DNA from: a virus
Reading direction: 5' to 3' (one strand)
IMG/VR virus record: IMGVR_UViG_3300035666_000056
Span: 1-41,104 of that record
Length of the DNA stretch: 41,104 nt
Part shown: piece by piece, positions 461 through 35,274 of the stretch
How positions within the stretch are numbered: position 1 is the first letter of the stretch
Layout: every line of letters begins with the position of its first letter
Notes under the pieces: generated by a model
What the model was told of the DNA's origin: nothing
The model's database searches: none
The model's input: the letters and a program-made list of their open reading frames with translations, nothing else
Program-made: the position numbers and the translations under genes

Positions 461-1258
461 ATGAGTTATTTATACTGCCCAGAGTTAGTCTGGTCGAACC
501 CAAAATTAACTTTAACCGAGAAAGTACTGCTCGGTCGCATAATAGCACTATCCAATAAGTATGGATATTGCAACGCATCAAATAAATTCTTTGAAGACGA
601 ATTAAATCTCACCCAATCTACTATCACCAAACACATCGGGAACTTAACAAACAAGGGATACCTCAAGAGAGTTGTATTAACTGATGATAAAAAACAGGTG
701 GTTGAAAGAAGGCTGTATTTTCAATTTGAAGTGCCAGAGTTAACAGACACCTCTAGCAAAAACTGCTATACCCTCCCCCCAAAAACTGCTATACCCTCCC
801 CCCAAAATCTACTAGGAACATTAGATTTAACATTAGATGTGTCAAATTCTAAAGAATTTGACTTTGACGAGCAAATAAAAACTTTATATGGGATAGAACC
901 TGCACCAATTCCAGACAAGAAAAAGTCTAAAAAGATCACCCAAGAAGATGGAATGATAAATACCTCGATCCTTTTAGAAATAAAGAAAGCGACTTTGTTA
1001 AAAGACCTGCCTATGTCTGTGAAGCAACAGCGAATATTTGCAAACTTTATCAGAGCAAGGTTAAAAAGTGTTATGCCACCAGACGGTTATAATGAGAAAG
1101 ACTTGATTTCATTATTGAATGAGGTAATAACTAACATGGCAAGGGATAATTTTATGAAAGATAAAATGGGAGATCTAAAACTATTTTATTACAGGATGGT
1201 TTTGTTTCACCCAGTCTTCAAAGACTCCAAAGCGTATAAGAAAGAGGTTTATCTATGA
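461..1258 (+). CDS. Replication initiator / replisome organiser (winged-helix N terminus)
   Basis: A 265-residue protein expected to bind the origin and recruit the helicase. Residues 1-90 resemble the HTH_36-type winged helix of phage replisome organisers: an LTLTEKVLLGRI helix, then NKFFEDELNLTQSTITKHI as the helix-turn-helix, then NLTNKGYLKR and a wing. Residues about 95-160 form a low-complexity linker, and the C terminus is a helical domain. The start is set by TTTAGAAAGGAT 5-10 bases upstream. It overlaps the helicase gene by 4 bases (ATGA), so the two are translationally coupled. The linker DNA carries tandem and inverted repeats that look like an origin, an arrangement known from lambda O and lactococcal replisome organisers. 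Family assignment is by pattern only. Confidence 0.75.
   Translation: MSYLYCPELVWSNPKLTLTEKVLLGRIIALSNKYGYCNASNKFFEDELNLTQSTITKHIGNLTNKGYLKRVVLTDDKKQVVERRLYFQFEVPELTDTSSKNCYTLPPKTAIPSPQNLLGTLDLTLDVSNSKEFDFDEQIKTLYGIEPAPIPDKKKSKKITQEDGMINTSILLEIKKATLLKDLPMSVKQQRIFANFIRARLKSVMPPDGYNEKDLISLLNEVITNMARDNFMKDKMGDLKLFYYRMVLFHPVFKDSKAYKKEVYL
758..862. other. Candidate replication origin inside the initiator gene (iterons + inverted repeat)
   Basis: Two perfect head-to-tail 23-bp repeats lie at 758-780 and 781-803 (AAAAACTGCTATACCC followed by TCCCCCC). Because 23 is not a multiple of 3, the two copies are read in different frames, so protein-level selection does not explain them. They are followed by a 12-bp tandem pair containing AACATTAGAT (817-826 and 829-838) and a perfect inverted repeat GTCAAATTC / GAATTTGAC (841-849 / 854-862). 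All lie in the part of the gene encoding an unstructured linker. Origin function is inferred from the iteron-like layout and the initiator-helicase context. Confidence 0.6.
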
Positions 1259-2094
1259 TTGAATTGACAGAAAAACAAGTTGAATTTGAAATTCAAAAAC
1301 TTTCCGAGATAGAAAAGATAACCGCTCCCTTCAAAAATTATGATGGCAAGGACCAAATAATACACGGTAACGCATTAAAAAACGATTTAACCATAGATCT
1401 ATCAAAGAAATACCACACTTCAATTTCAAAATTAGATGAAACAATTGATGCTTTTAAGGCAGGAGATTTGGTAGTGGTGTCTGGGATATCTGGTCACGGA
1501 AAGACTGAGTTACTTGTATCTTTTACAAAGGATTTTATAGATAGAAAATACAAACCGTTGTGGGTATCTTTTGAGGTAAGTCCGAGAGATTTTGTAACAA
1601 GGTTTGGCAATTACGATTTAAACTTTTATATACCTAAAGAAAACAAACCGATGGATATAAAGTGGCTATTTCAAAGGATATATGAGGCAAAGGCTAAATA
1701 CCAAATTGACATGGTATTTATAGACCATCTGCATTATCTAGTACCCTTTGAAAAGTTAAGGATTGGAGACACCTCGCTTTTATTTGGTAGCATCATGCGA
1801 GAGATAAAATCCCAGGCGGTCAAACTGGATATTACGATCTTCTTAGTAGCACATCTTAAGAAGGTTGATGGTGTTTCATGTCCAGACGCATCGGACTTAC
1901 GAGACAGTAGTTTTGTCTTTCAAGAAAGCGACACGGTTTTAATAGTGCATAGGGATAACAAAGATGGTGTAGTAGATAATACTTCAATTGAAACCGATGC
2001 CATGATTAGAGTGGCAAAAAATAGGTGGAAAGGCACACTTGGACTTATCAAAGTCAGATACAACAGAAAAGAACGAAGGTTTAAATATGTTTGA
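1255..2094 (+). CDS. DnaB-type replicative helicase (RecA-like core only)
   Basis: A 279-residue ATPase of the DnaB/RecA superfamily that would unwind the phage replication fork. Walker A is GISGHGKT at residues 77-84, Walker B is MVFIDHLHYL at 153-162, and a sensor-like FLVAHLKK follows. The C terminus has the DnaB-like DTVLIVHR and AKNRWKGTLGLIKVRYNRKERRF region, which includes an arginine-finger-type Arg. It is much shorter than bacterial DnaB (about 450-470 residues) and has only a short N-terminal extension in place of the primase-interacting domain. No primase or polymerase gene was recognised nearby, so host proteins probably complete the replisome. Its ATGA overlap with the initiator supports coupled synthesis. 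Confidence 0.9.
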   Translation: MIELTEKQVEFEIQKLSEIEKITAPFKNYDGKDQIIHGNALKNDLTIDLSKKYHTSISKLDETIDAFKAGDLVVVSGISGHGKTELLVSFTKDFIDRKYKPLWVSFEVSPRDFVTRFGNYDLNFYIPKENKPMDIKWLFQRIYEAKAKYQIDMVFIDHLHYLVPFEKLRIGDTSLLFGSIMREIKSQAVKLDITIFLVAHLKKVDGVSCPDASDLRDSSFVFQESDTVLIVHRDNKDGVVDNTSIETDAMIRVAKNRWKGTLGLIKVRYNRKERRFKYV

Positions 2095-11475: not shown

Positions 11476-14145
11476 TTAAGCGTTATAAGCGTATAGCCAT
11501 TTGAAACTACCATTGACTGCGATTCTAATCTTATGCGAAAAAGTTGTAGCAGTTGATGACGCAATGATAGGGTTACCAGCTCCAATAGTTGCTTCAAAGT
11601 TTATAAACTCTTCAGATATGTCTGATTGTTGCAAAATTAAAGTAGGAATTCCCGCAGTTGTTGAGTTTTGGTTTACATCTAACATAGCATCTGGAGTAGT
11701 GTCTGCAATACCCAATCTTCCTAAAAGGTATGAGTTTGCACCCCATTCAGAATAAATTGCCCAAGAATTAGTAACTGTTCCAGCTTGATTATTTACTGAG
11801 ATATTATCTATAAATAAGCCATACAAGTTTGTAATAACCCCTGTTTCAGAGTATGGTCTAACATTTATTCCTTTAGCCTCAAAAGTTCTAATACTACTTG
11901 CGGCACTTCTATAATGTCCATAAGCAAAGTTTACAGCCTCAACAGACTGAATAAAACCTCTGTCAGTTGCAACATCTCTTAACATATCAGCACTAAAACC
12001 ATAGACATAACCACCGATTGAAACATTAGAAGCAATAGCCATTTCCAAACCAAAGTTTATAGTTCTATAAAAGTTAATTTTTGAAGTTGTGTAGTTTAAA
12101 TTACTATTTATTGTTAAACCACCTGTAGAAGCATCCCAGTTACTAAAGTCTGTTCTTATTGAAGTTACAAAATTAGAGGCTGGACTTTGGTTAATACCAA
12201 GTCTCCCATCATTTCTAACAATGAAAAGTTGTGTAGCATTAGAGTTTGCCGTATATATTGCATTGTTTGTATGGTCGGATGAACTTGCCATAATGTCTAA
12301 AGCACTATTTGTTGTTGGAAACATATTATTTACTCCCAATGCTAATGTTCCCTTGTGATAACTTGTTCCACCATCTGAATAAATTGAGTAAGCCGCATTT
12401 TTTGTAACAATACAAGCATTTGATAAATACATATTGTAAAAATAACTAATAGAAGCATTTGCCAAACCAACAATGTTAGTTTCTAAAAGTCTTATGTCAA
12501 AAACATCTGAGTTTTCTTGTTTATATGTGATTTTTTGGCCAACAACATAATCAATTAGAGTATTAGAACTTCCATCAACATTTACATAGTTTTCCTCAGC
12601 AGTAACGGATGCAACAACACCAGAAACATTTGATGTAAGTGCAATAACATTTGACATAGCAGTTTTATTATTTAAAGGGGATGTTGATTCAATTTCCAGA
12701 GTATTTGATATTGAATAAGTATCATCTACAGCACTTGGTCTATACCTAAAATCAAACTTTGCAATCGGACTTTGTGAATGTCCAAATAATGTATAACTTT
12801 CAGTTGGGTTTACAAAAACTTTTCCATTTGTTGTAGTTGGCATTGAATTTGGAAATAAATATAAATTTTCTGTATCTGTTATTCCACCATATAATAATTG
12901 CCCCCCACTTCTACCAGCAATTAAAAGGTATTGTGTGTGGTCATCAATTCCCAAAGAAACAGTTGAGCCATGAACTATTACATTTAATGCAGACAATGAA
13001 CCTAAACTTGGTTTTGATACAACTGATGCGTATGATAACTCATTTAGAGCAGATAAAGATCCTAAACTAGGCTTGGACACAACTGATGCGTAGGATAAAT
13101 CATTCAATGCAGATAACGATCCTAAACTAGGTAATGACACTAAATTGTAAAAATTAACGGTATTTTGAACTGCTAAAGATCCTAAAGATAAAAATGCTAA
13201 CACAGATGGAAGGCTTTTATTTTTCCAAAGAGTGCCGTCTGATTGTAATACATGCCCAGATGCTAAACTTAAAATTGCAATATCATGTATTTCTCTTGTT
13301 TCATAACCATTTAATACATTAACTACTAACTCGCCATCAGATGTCGCTTTAACAACTGTTCCTACTCTTACATAATGAAGTGGTGCTAATTGAGGTGTGC
13401 TTGTAAATAAACCAGCTGTTACACCAGATAAATAAAGAGTATCCCCTGCTGTATAAGAAGATAAATTGATCCCAGATAATGCACCAAAGGTCGTAACCCA
13501 ACCTGTCGCTCCGTTATTTATATCCTCTGCAGTCATACCAATAGTAAAAGCAGAAGTCGTATCTGAATCGGCTTTTGCTCTTTCTATTGTTGGAGTATTA
13601 CCAGATACACCGTTTATATATACAACCGTGCCTTTTATCATATTTGTACCAGTTGAGTTTCTAACTCTTCTTGGAAAAATAGACTCCATACCAACTGCAA
13701 CATCTACATTTCCTCCTGGCAATCCATACTCTAAATGACCGTAATTTGTATTCCAGTTTAATAATCCTTCTGTAATAACAGTAGCACCAGCTGTTAAGTT
13801 AAATTGTAAATTGTTTAAATTTAAATTCCCAATACTTCCTTGAGATGCGTAAACTGTGTTTGAATATAATGTATTAGTGCTGATAGTTGAGGAGTTAACT
13901 CCGTGAAAGAAACCTGTATGTATTGAAGCGTTTGATAAAACTCCGAGGCTTGATGTTGTAAGGTATCCAATACTTGCAGAACTTCCATTAGCATGAATGA
14001 ATTGTACCAAATTTAAACTGGCATAAGATAACACACCTAAATTATTGACTACAAATGGGTCTGTAATAGATGCTAAAGATATCAAAGCAACATCTGAGTT
14101 TCTTAACTTTTGAAGTAATGGATCAAAATATGGAATTATTGTCAT
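11476..14145 (-). CDS. Large tail fibre / receptor-binding protein
   Basis: 889 residues. The N terminus is rich in LGVLSxASI-type repeats. The middle has three tandem 20-residue repeats (consensus PSLGSLSALNxLSYASVVSK) near residues 335-387. A Gly/Ser/Thr-rich beta region follows, with a C-terminal strand-rich end IRIAVNGSFKWLYAYNA typical of fibre tips. It overlaps the upstream gene by 4 bases. It is by far the longest tail gene and the best candidate for host recognition. The family is called from composition, repeats and position, not from a conserved enzymatic motif. Confidence 0.7.
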   Translation of the reverse strand: MTIIPYFDPLLQKLRNSDVALISLASITDPFVVNNLGVLSYASLNLVQFIHANGSSASIGYLTTSSLGVLSNASIHTGFFHGVNSSTISTNTLYSNTVYASQGSIGNLNLNNLQFNLTAGATVITEGLLNWNTNYGHLEYGLPGGNVDVAVGMESIFPRRVRNSTGTNMIKGTVVYINGVSGNTPTIERAKADSDTTSAFTIGMTAEDINNGATGWVTTFGALSGINLSSYTAGDTLYLSGVTAGLFTSTPQLAPLHYVRVGTVVKATSDGELVVNVLNGYETREIHDIAILSLASGHVLQSDGTLWKNKSLPSVLAFLSLGSLAVQNTVNFYNLVSLPSLGSLSALNDLSYASVVSKPSLGSLSALNELSYASVVSKPSLGSLSALNVIVHGSTVSLGIDDHTQYLLIAGRSGGQLLYGGITDTENLYLFPNSMPTTTNGKVFVNPTESYTLFGHSQSPIAKFDFRYRPSAVDDTYSISNTLEIESTSPLNNKTAMSNVIALTSNVSGVVASVTAEENYVNVDGSSNTLIDYVVGQKITYKQENSDVFDIRLLETNIVGLANASISYFYNMYLSNACIVTKNAAYSIYSDGGTSYHKGTLALGVNNMFPTTNSALDIMASSSDHTNNAIYTANSNATQLFIVRNDGRLGINQSPASNFVTSIRTDFSNWDASTGGLTINSNLNYTTSKINFYRTINFGLEMAIASNVSIGGYVYGFSADMLRDVATDRGFIQSVEAVNFAYGHYRSAASSIRTFEAKGINVRPYSETGVITNLYGLFIDNISVNNQAGTVTNSWAIYSEWGANSYLLGRLGIADTTPDAMLDVNQNSTTAGIPTLILQQSDISEEFINFEATIGAGNPIIASSTATTFSHKIRIAVNGSFKWLYAYNA
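12985..13140 (-). repeat. 60-bp tandem repeats inside the tail fibre gene (about 2.6 copies)
   Basis: Copies at 12985-13044, 13045-13104 and a partial one at 13105-13140 have a period of exactly 60 bp and share blocks such as CCTAAACT and ACAACTGATGCGTA. In frame they encode 20-residue units with the core SLGSLSALN.LSYASVVSKP. This suggests growth of the fibre shaft by unequal recombination. Confidence 0.85.
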
Positions 14146-32458: not shown

Positions 32459-32873
32459 ATCTTTCTTTTACCATTTCTGGAAATACAATATTTACCGTGT
32501 TGTTATTTGTCTCCTGCAACATCTCATGCTTTCTTTCTTGTCTAAATACGGTCTTTTCTAAATACCATTTAGCAATATTCACATCTTTATTACGCACCAT
32601 GTTATCTACTATTATGTTTCGTGCGACTATCACAGGAAATATCCTTGCCTGTTCCGTTTCTGTTTGGAGACCAGGTATTTTTTCACACCAATCATAATAA
32701 GTTTGTCTTGAAACACCCACATACCTTGTAGCCTCTTCAACAGTTCCGCCAAGTTTAAACACTTCAATTAGTTTGTTTTTGATTTCTGGCGTATATACCA
32801 CCATCGCTGATACTTTTCTGTTTATTTTGTTTCGCTTTGCTTCTTTTTGAGGACCGTGGTACTTTCCTGCCAT
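32367..32873 (-). CDS. terS: Terminase small subunit
   Basis: 168 residues. Residues 25-55 hold a helix-turn-helix (LGGTVEEATRYVGVSRQTYYDWCEK) for recognising the packaging site. A helical oligomerisation segment (ARNIIVDNMVRNKDVNIAKWYLEKTVFRQERK) follows, then an acidic C-terminal tail. This is the usual phBC6A51-like/Terminase_1-type layout. AAAGGAGATTT precedes the ATG at 32873. The gene starts inside the 3' end of the ParB-MTase gene and ends inside terL. Confidence 0.85.
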   Translation of the reverse strand: MAGKYHGPQKEAKRNKINRKVSAMVVYTPEIKNKLIEVFKLGGTVEEATRYVGVSRQTYYDWCEKIPGLQTETEQARIFPVIVARNIIVDNMVRNKDVNIAKWYLEKTVFRQERKHEMLQETNNNTVNIVFPEMVKERYEAERIITGEAHETDEPLLSSSTGESLSIK

Positions 32874-34042
32874 AAATCTCCTTTGCCTATATACTGAAAA
32901 TATCTTTTTCTAATAACATCGCAATAGTGTGGGTCAATTTCCATAGCGTAACATACTCTTTGCAGTTTTTCACACGCTATTATTGTAGAGCCAGATCCTG
33001 CAAATAAATCAAGCACAATATCTCCTGCTTTTGATGAGTTATTTAATGCTCTTTCAATTAAATGTATAGGTTTCATAGTCGGATGCTCTGTACTCTTTGT
33101 TGGTCTATCAATATCCCATACAGTTGACTGCTTTCTGTCCCCATACCACATGTGAGACGCACCTTCTTTCCATCCATAAAGTATAGGTTCATGTTTCCAA
33201 TGATAATCCTGCCTACCCATAACAATTGAGTTTTTATTCCAAATAATACATTGTTTAACAAGATAACCTGCTCTGTTTAACGCATTTCTAAAATTCAAAC
33301 CTTCACTATCGGAATGACATATATAATACGAAGCACCAGCCTTTGAGCTGACATACATATTCGTAAATGCCTCATAAAGAAAATCTTGGAAATTATTACT
33401 TTCAAATACATCGTTTTGTATTTTCAAAGCATCTTTTGTCTTTCCTGTGTAATCTACATTGTAAGGCGGATCTGTAAATATCAAATCTGCTTTTGTATCC
33501 GATAAAAGATATTGCACATCATCTAAAACAGTCGCAGACCCACACATAAGCCTATGGTTTCCCAACATATAAATCTCCCCAGGTTTAGATACAGCATCCT
33601 TTGTCACACCAGGAATGTCATCTTGGATTTCATTGTCTGGTGCATACCTGGTAAGAAGAGTATTTAAATCTAAATCACGACCTATGCTTATGGAAAAATC
33701 ATTCAAATCAATTTCATTTTTATATTCCTGTGCCAACTCTGCTAATTTAACATGATCATAAAACCCTACCTCTTCGTTATCTGCTAAGGCAATTTCTACC
33801 TTTTCTGCATCACTGCCAGGTTCAACTACTGATACCCACACCTGCTTTATACCTAAATCTCTCATTGCTCTAAGTCGCATGTTGCCACCTATTACCTCAC
33901 CATCTTTTGTTATAATAACTGGTTTAAACTGACCATATTTAGTAATCCTTCGTTTCAAAGTTTCAAACTTATCATCCGTTATACTTCTTGGGTTTCTATC
34001 CCAATTAAACAATTTCTCAATATCCCATAGTTCTCTTGTCAT
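32822..34042 (-). CDS. ParB-domain / DNA methyltransferase fusion
   Basis: 406 residues from MTRELWDIEKLFNWDRNPRS. Residues about 5-95 are a ParB/Srx-like domain (NPRSITDDKFETLKRRITKYGQFKPVIIT; VIGGNMRLRAMRDLG). Residues about 150-385 are an N6-adenine or N4-cytosine methyltransferase, with DPPYNVDYTG at 191-200 and the SAM-binding FAGSGST at 347-353, in beta-class order. It may protect phage DNA from host restriction or mark it for terminase, whose gene is next. The start at 34042 is preferred: TTTTAGGATTAGC precedes it, and it overlaps the stop of a tiny membrane-protein gene (ATGA). A longer frame to 34114 would bury that gene. Confidence 0.92.
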   Translation of the reverse strand: MTRELWDIEKLFNWDRNPRSITDDKFETLKRRITKYGQFKPVIITKDGEVIGGNMRLRAMRDLGIKQVWVSVVEPGSDAEKVEIALADNEEVGFYDHVKLAELAQEYKNEIDLNDFSISIGRDLDLNTLLTRYAPDNEIQDDIPGVTKDAVSKPGEIYMLGNHRLMCGSATVLDDVQYLLSDTKADLIFTDPPYNVDYTGKTKDALKIQNDVFESNNFQDFLYEAFTNMYVSSKAGASYYICHSDSEGLNFRNALNRAGYLVKQCIIWNKNSIVMGRQDYHWKHEPILYGWKEGASHMWYGDRKQSTVWDIDRPTKSTEHPTMKPIHLIERALNNSSKAGDIVLDLFAGSGSTIIACEKLQRVCYAMEIDPHYCDVIRKRYFQYIGKGDLWQESTTVLKKKQSETK

Positions 34043-34149
34043 GCTAATCCTAAAATTAAAATAAATAATAAAACTGCTAACACTACACCGACTAACATAC
34101 ATCCCATACCGCATCCCATATCAGTTATGTTTTCTAATAATTCATCCAT
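34039..34149 (-). CDS. 36-residue single-pass membrane protein
   Basis: The frame MDELLENITDMGCGMGCMLV leads into a hydrophobic helix ending LLFILILGLA (residues about 17-36). The stop overlaps the ParB-MTase start (ATGA), and the frame contains that gene's SD. A TATAAT lies 7 bases ahead of the ATG, so if it is the late promoter the message would be nearly leaderless. It would be the first gene of the late arm. The function is unknown; a Cys-rich GCGMGC motif precedes the helix. Confidence 0.55.
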   Translation of the reverse strand: MDELLENITDMGCGMGCMLVGVVLAVLLFILILGLA

Positions 34150-34163: not shown

Positions 34164-34247
34164 CTAAAATAATTTCAAATACCCTATTGTAATTTAATTC
34201 AAAATGTGATATAACGAAAGTAATATAAAGCGCGAGGTTATCTATAT

Positions 34248-34342
34248 ATATATTTTATTCTATAAAATATATTTTATTGAATATATTATTCTATAATATA
34301 TTCAATAGTTTAATATATATTATTCTATAATATATATTAAAC
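34248..34342. repeat. Array of three back-to-back perfect AT hairpins with TCT loops
   Basis: Hairpin 1: arms 34248-34258 / 34262-34272 (11 bp). Hairpin 2: 34275-34289 / 34293-34307 (15 bp). Hairpin 3: 34308-34323 / 34327-34342 (16 bp). All three share the centre ATTAT-TCT-ATAAT or its close variant TTTAT-TCT-ATAAA, and the arms are almost purely A/T. They fill nearly every base of the interval. This is non-coding DNA between the two divergent arms. Confidence 0.9.
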
Positions 34343-34425
34343 ACATTATATATATAAATATATATATATTATATATAAATATATATATAAATAAATACAT
34401 AAATAAATTTGTCTTTTTTTTTGTT
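34343..34425. other. Extreme AT-rich tract (possible DNA unwinding element)
   Basis: About 80 bases composed almost only of A and T, mainly (TA)n with AAATA steps, running into a T-rich stretch at 34413-34425. No gene is seen. Together with the hairpin array upstream it forms the least stable DNA of the genome and could be an unwinding or regulatory element. Confidence 0.6.
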
Positions 34426-35101: not shown

Positions 35102-35130
35102 TTGACTTATATATACTAGTATAGTACAAT
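35102..35130 (+). promoter_or_regulatory. Early promoter P2 with operator in spacer
   Basis: TTGACT (35102-35107), 17-bp spacer, TACAAT (35125-35130). The spacer contains the perfect palindrome TATACTAGTATA (35112-35123). A further CTAGTATATAC copy follows at 35132-35142. It reads toward the early genes. Confidence 0.7.
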
Positions 35131-35245: not shown

Positions 35246-35274
35246 TTGACTTTTATATACTAGTATAGTACAAT
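35246..35274 (+). promoter_or_regulatory. Early promoter P3 with operator in spacer
   Basis: TTGACT (35246-35251), 17-bp spacer, TACAAT (35269-35274). The spacer again contains TATACTAGTATA (35256-35267). P2 and P3 are near-identical over about 28 bp, so a single regulator could control both. The transcript would begin at about 35281, with a leader of about 195 bases before the first early gene. Confidence 0.72.

Follow-up and report, generated by a model that had tools for sequence, protein, structure and literature searches.

Iteron origins that lie inside the gene of their own initiator are known from both plasmids and phages. In RepA_N plasmids such as pSK41 and pTZ2162, the Rep boxes sit centrally within rep, where they encode a dispensable linker, and are bound by the N-terminal winged helix of the Rep protein; the typical iteron of this kind is a semi-palindrome that converges on an A-tract (PMC5703833, PMC7145576). 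The chimeric Rep of pPR9 joins an HTH_36-type N-terminus and its origin to a pSK41 C-terminus and supports autonomous replication (PMC5703833). Among phages, 80alpha gene 20 is a case in point: supplying the gene in trans does not rescue its deletion, genes 20 and 21 together drive the autonomous replication of a plasmid, and an origin lying within the gene is what the authors infer (PMC5499656). The 80alpha record likewise annotates the origin inside gene 20. In SPP1, gp38 binds the direct repeats of oriL within its own gene 38, and an AT-rich element there is the unwinding element (PMC6316719). Lambda ori, in gene O, also places iterons and an AT-rich tract within the initiator gene (PMC5499656).

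The stretch of phage DNA analysed here (the window, 41,104 nt) shares this layout. The same 127 nt stand at its beginning and its end, indicating a complete circular phage genome with a 40,977-bp circle. We consider it very probable, from its sequence features and from comparison with relatives and with the systems above, that a repeat cluster in the middle of the initiator gene is the theta-type replication origin of this phage, embedded in the gene of its own initiator. As such it is a fresh example of the in-gene iteron origin rather than a new kind of origin.

The gene (positions 461–1258, plus strand) encodes a predicted 265-aa phage replication initiation protein of the HTH_36 type. It matches PF13730 (HTH_36) with E=1.3e-8 and 34.9 bits, which passes the Pfam threshold (cut-off 25), and PHROG replication initiation families with E down to 1.1e-12. 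AlphaFold2 predicts an N-terminal winged helix-turn-helix domain at aa 1–88 (461–724, pLDDT ∼95), the putative iteron-binding domain, and a C-terminal helical region at aa 168–230 (962–1150, pLDDT ∼80) that may recruit the helicase or replisome and that has no Pfam match. Between them, aa 95–133 (743–859, pLDDT ∼30) are predicted to be a disordered linker, which coincides with the repeat array and AT-rich tract described below; the original prediction had placed the cluster in just such linker-coding DNA. Foldseek searches with the winged helix return the RepA_N initiator structures 4pql, 5kbj, 4pt7, and 4pta among the best PDB matches, with MarR-type winged helices interspersed. Of these, 4pql ranks second to third (E=0.01), MarR-type folds score alike, and nothing reaches E 0.001; therefore, the winged-helix fold alone assigns no family. 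PDB sequence searches with the initiator protein or its profile found no meaningful relative.

The next gene (1255–2094, plus strand) starts inside the end of the initiator gene with a 4-nt overlap and encodes a predicted 279-aa replicative helicase of the DnaB_C/T7 gp4-like type (PF03796, E=3.5e-24; PHROG primase/helicase, E=6.6e-29). This helicase consists of the RecA-like domain only, without a primase part, and its nearest likeness in tblastn searches is to the T7 gp4-like primase/helicases of cyanophages. The window phage has no identified loader gene. The leader between the ORF at 1–321 and the initiator gene folds with z = −3.4 and holds a strong GC-rich hairpin with 11-bp arms (334–362). 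The hairpin has no T run 3′ of it on the plus strand and is possibly a regulatory element rather than a terminator.

The layout of the window gene resembles that of the RepA_N plasmids, and the pPR9 chimera has an N-terminus of the same Pfam family, HTH_36. However, PF06970 matches neither the window protein (E up to 1) nor any of 46 relatives (at 0.01), and a DnaD-like C-terminal match is absent from the window protein. The protein comes from a phage that has a helicase gene of its own beside the initiator gene, and the half-site symmetry is weak. Gene 20 of 80alpha and ORF016 of phage 77 likewise carry iterons and an AT-rich tract in the initiator linker, and a gene for helicase loading comes next. 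Phage 77 is a fellow member of the HTH_36 group that includes the window, whereas the 80alpha winged helix falls outside it (no hit); in both 80alpha and phage 77 the next gene is a DnaC-like loader and not a helicase, and the iteron sequences differ from those of the window. SPP1, the likeness to which rests on its published description, additionally carries oriR and encodes a dedicated loader, gp39. Lambda relies on the P loader and on host DnaB, whereas the gene following the window initiator encodes a helicase and not a P-type loader; the lambda iteron sequence is unrelated, and the matches of the window protein to O-like PHROGs are weak (E 1e-6 and above) and rank behind those to other replication families. 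The original prediction had likened the locus to lambda O and to lactococcal replisome organisers. The layout of iterons plus AT-rich tract within the gene is indeed shared with lambda, but RepA_N plasmid origins and SPP1 oriL are the closest functional models. As to the lactococcal organisers (Tuc2009/TP901-1 type), the Pfam matches of the window protein at E up to 1 include no replisome-organiser N-terminal domain.

The core of the cluster is a 23-bp tandem repeat. As had been predicted, two perfect copies are present, at 757–779 and 780–802, and the repeat runs on as 2.5 copies over 757–814 with 94% matches. None of 1000 synonymous-codon shuffles of the gene reached the 28-nt exact self-match at period 23 (the longest shuffled run was 15), and the tandem-repeat score of 29 compares with a null mean of 9.0 and a null maximum of 13 under synonymous shuffling. 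Taking the register from relatives (see below), the array reads as three plus-strand units: unit 1 at 751–773 (CTCTAGC-AAAAACT-GCTATACCC; in full, CTCTAGCAAAAACTGCTATACCC), unit 2 at 774–796 (TCCCCCC-AAAAACT-GCTATACCC; TCCCCCCAAAAACTGCTATACCC), and unit 3, with a degenerate right half, at 797–819 (TCCCCCC-AAAATCT-ACTAGGAAC; TCCCCCCAAAATCTACTAGGAAC). In unit 1, the half-sites TAGC (754–757) and GCTA (765–768) converge across the A-tract. The half-site palindrome is clear in this unit only, and the window inverted-repeat count of 4, against 1.95 under the null, is not a significant excess, as 5 of 40 shuffles reached it. The array is small (2–3 units) and holds two TACCC/GGGTA cores 23 bp apart. 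The 23-bp period makes the two perfect copies encode different peptides. Codon usage is also unusual: the array uses the rare codons CCC, CTC, and TCC, and three of its four prolines are encoded by CCC, as against 3.4% of prolines in the other genes counted. An exact search of viral contigs with the window iteron CTGCTATACCCYCCCCC gave only two matches, both in unrelated genes; by this measure the iteron sequence itself is phage-specific.

Immediately downstream lies an AT-rich tract (817–862, plus strand, 78–80% AT), a candidate DNA-unwinding element. It contains a direct repeat, AACATTAGAT, at 817–826 and 829–838. The 12-bp repeat pair of the original prediction is therefore present, but as a 10-nt exact repeat with a 12-bp period. 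Sixteen of 1000 synonymous shuffles do as well, which makes the pair weak alone, and it is in frame, encoding TLDLTLDV, and could be a protein repeat. The earlier argument that a frame-shifting period implies conservation at the DNA level holds for the 23-bp repeat, and the codon choice supports it. Further along the tract is a perfect inverted repeat, GTCAAATTCT-AA-AGAATTTGAC (841–850/853–862, plus strand, 2-nt spacer), whose arms are 10 nt rather than the predicted nine; it is equalled by 10 of 1000 synonymous shuffles and may be part of the origin. The 23-bp array is the strong element of the cluster; each of the other two, the 12-bp pair and the inverted repeat, is weak when taken singly. 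The tract is also ordinary for its genome, in which 6.5% of 40-nt windows are at least 80% AT, and the region at 34.24–34.40 kb is far richer in AT.

To place the array in a family context we collected 255 initiator-like ORFs, which formed 82 clusters at 75% identity and yielded 75 full-length non-redundant representatives from Staphylococcus, lactobacilli, Clostridia, Fusobacterium, Acetoanaerobium, Pseudomonas, Treponema, and environmental phages. HTH_36 (PF13730) is matched by all 46 aligned relatives. The relatives are distant, with at most ∼40–45% identity to the window initiator over the N-terminal domain, and searches with the initiator, helicase, and terminase found no close siblings in the collections searched. 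A direct comparison of repeats that are kept while the linker drifts was therefore replaced by a family-wide synonymous-shuffle test. In 61 of the 75 initiators the linker tandem repeats outscore 95% or more of the synonymous shuffles, and in 42 they beat all 60; by contrast, only 3 of 72 neighboring genes pass the same test. These repeats are centred at about aa 111, directly past the winged helix. Such DNA-level arrays, at the same place in most relatives, support the original prediction of an origin-like cluster within the initiator gene.

Examination of the arrays by eye highlights a common unit of half-site, A-tract, half-site, and TACCCC, as in CCCCTATTGACGCAAATGTCAATACCCC; half-sites that converge across an A-tract are typical of the group without being universal. 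Short inverted repeats in the relatives' linkers are 2.7-fold overrepresented (5.52 against a null of 2.02), and the TACCC/GGGTA core occurs 159 times in linkers, against 40.5 expected from synonymous shuffles. Its density is 11.8/kb in linkers and 0.83/kb elsewhere, a 14-fold enrichment. Most core spacings are 22–25 or 44–46 bp. Many relatives have in-frame 24-bp periods that give PIDKNVNTPID-like repeats. Nonetheless, cores occupy more than one reading frame in 32 of the 38 genes with two or more cores, which argues that selection acts on the DNA; for the family as a whole, these sequence comparisons rule out a protein-level reason for the repeats.

In most relatives the iterons are followed directly by AATAATACAAGTATTAATAATACAAG or a variant of it, which forms a conserved AATACAAG block. 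Scored as present at 19 or more of 26 identities, the block is found in 61 of the 75 representatives, and is thus common rather than universal. AT content rises from ∼0.6 in the iterons to 0.8–0.9 in the block. Codon choice within it is strongly skewed relative to the rest of the same genes: AGT encodes 96% of serines inside the block and 29% elsewhere, ACA encodes 83% and 39% of threonines, and AAT encodes 99% and 72% of asparagines, respectively. This bias shows that the block is constrained as DNA, and it is probably a shared unwinding or single-stranded DNA-recognition element. The AATAATACAAGTATTAATAATACAAG block is kept at the codon level across very different phages, for example in the linkers of L018, L021, and L013. 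The window gene differs here. Its best match to AATAATACAAGTATTAATAATACAAG reaches 16 of 26 identities at another position in the gene, and a different AT-rich repeat (78–80% AT) occupies the place of the block. The missing block is what chiefly sets the window apart from its relatives in this sequence comparison. We found no description of the family-wide origin grammar or of the AT-block codon conservation in the literature searched, which did not cover older reviews, and we do not claim novelty for either.

Comparison across the family also indicates which domain reads the iterons. Among 60 representatives (1770 pairs; partial rank correlation with 500 permutations), iteron similarity correlates with winged-helix identity when C-terminal identity is controlled (0.28, 0/500 permutations), but not with C-terminal identity when winged-helix identity is controlled (0.01, 186/500 permutations). 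Statistically, then, the iteron sequence tracks the DNA-binding domain and not the C-terminus, and physical linkage could be part of this correlation. Phages 77 and 80alpha offer a specific case: downstream of the AT tract their gene halves are nearly identical in DNA, and the winged helix and the iterons both differ. The loci of this natural domain swap are L016:1944–2687 and L259:1440–2210. Together with the 80alpha genetics that put the origin in the gene, an array that travels with its DNA-binding domain fits the origin reading given in the original prediction. Two candidate controls were rejected. Lactobacillus phage A2, considered as a mapped-origin control, has its annotated origin outside an HTH_36 gene, and the plasmid match L261, considered as a plasmid Rep control, is phage-like, with the gene order SSAP-ssb-HNH-initiator-helicase.

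From these relatives and from known systems (RepA_N plasmids and SPP1) we infer how binding, melting, and helicase loading might proceed. The N-terminal winged-helix domain would bind the 23-bp iterons at 751–819, probably as side-by-side dimers; because 23 bp is about two helical turns, the iterons would lie on one face of the DNA. The loaded array would strain and then open the adjacent AT-rich tract (817–862). The C-terminal part may then recruit the helicase encoded by the next gene. As no loader gene was identified, direct recruitment is only a guess. The encoded protein stretch is predicted to be only a flexible linker, which would make constraint on the DNA possible at the array. No DnaA box, either consensus or with one mismatch, occurs in the first 2.2 kb, and a DnaA-dependent origin is therefore not indicated. 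GC-skew is uninformative on the origin: its minimum (34.9 kb) and maximum (5.4 kb) both fall about where gene direction switches, and thus reflect transcription rather than an origin. The distant skew minimum that the original prediction offered as a refuting sign is therefore no usable test.

Other explanations of the repeats have to be weighed against an origin. The initiator may bind the repeats to control its own expression or copy number, by roadblock, autorepression, or handcuffing, and the origin may lie in another part of the genome, such as the AT-rich intergenic region at 34.2–35.3 kb. That region does contain a long run of AT-palindromes between divergent gene blocks (34.24–34.40 kb), and SPP1 has a second origin away from its initiator gene (PMC6316719). 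However, no match to the 23-mer occurs elsewhere in the genome at up to three mismatches (0.00 expected), half-site near-matches outside the gene are isolated, and the part at 34.9–35.3 kb, with two near-identical promoter-like sequences, resembles an early promoter region. Moreover, the sites within the gene constitute the origin itself both in 80alpha and in the RepA_N plasmids (PMC5499656, PMC5703833). We consider a purely regulatory role improbable.

Still less probable is that the 23-bp repeat is a recent, functionless duplication produced by replication slippage and tolerated in a disordered linker. The copies are 100% identical, as expected of a fresh duplication, and AlphaFold2 does predict linker disorder, but relatives from Bacillota, Fusobacterium, Pseudomonas, and Treponema carry independent arrays that agree in core, spacing, and position, and the synonymous-shuffle and control-gene tests point to DNA-level constraint in the family. 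A protein-level role, in which the repeats serve as a Pro/Lys-rich motif of the linker, could draw on the in-frame 24-bp periods of many relatives and on the in-frame AACATTAGAT pair of the window. Against it stand the period of 23 and the different peptides of the window copies, the multiple frames of the cores in 32 of 38 multi-core relatives, and the loss of the repeats in synonymous shuffles that preserve the protein; this explanation strikes us as very unlikely.

With an in-gene origin preferred, the comparisons can be joined into a broader reading, to which we give an even chance of being right. HTH_36 phage initiators would share one origin grammar: a TACCC-cored semi-palindromic iteron in a 23–24 bp register, after which comes a AATACAAG unwinding block conserved as DNA. 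Phages would exchange the DNA-binding domain together with its iterons as one cassette, apart from the helicase-recruiting C-terminus. The window phage would then represent a divergent branch in which core and spacing are kept, the AT block is replaced, and handover goes straight to a T7-gp4-like helicase without a loader.

For a phage without a close relative in the collections searched, the analysis narrows the candidate origin to a precise 69 bp plus the AT tract beside them. What had been an anecdotal observation in a few phages becomes, through the family comparison, a rule for scanning genomes: an out-of-frame iteron array in an in-frame gene would point to a replication start site and to the domain that reads it. 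Natural swaps of a binding domain together with its iterons suggest a way for phages and plasmids to alter origin specificity and keep the host-interaction part; they also open the recognition of iterons by HTH_36 domains to direct testing.

Several other loci in the window merit mention. The near-perfect AT palindrome run between the divergent gene blocks spans 34241–34405 and is a possible regulatory or secondary origin region. The sequences at 35102–35130 and 35246–35274 are 97% identical, promoter-like (TTGACT-17-TACAAT), and set within TATATACTAG-type repeats, and probably mark an early promoter region. A 60-bp tandem repeat (12981–13140; 2.7 copies, 81%) lies inside a large minus-strand gene (11476–14145). 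Finally, the gene at 32822–34114, which adjoins the terminase gene, encodes an N6/N4-type DNA methylase with a ParB_N-like N-terminal stretch.
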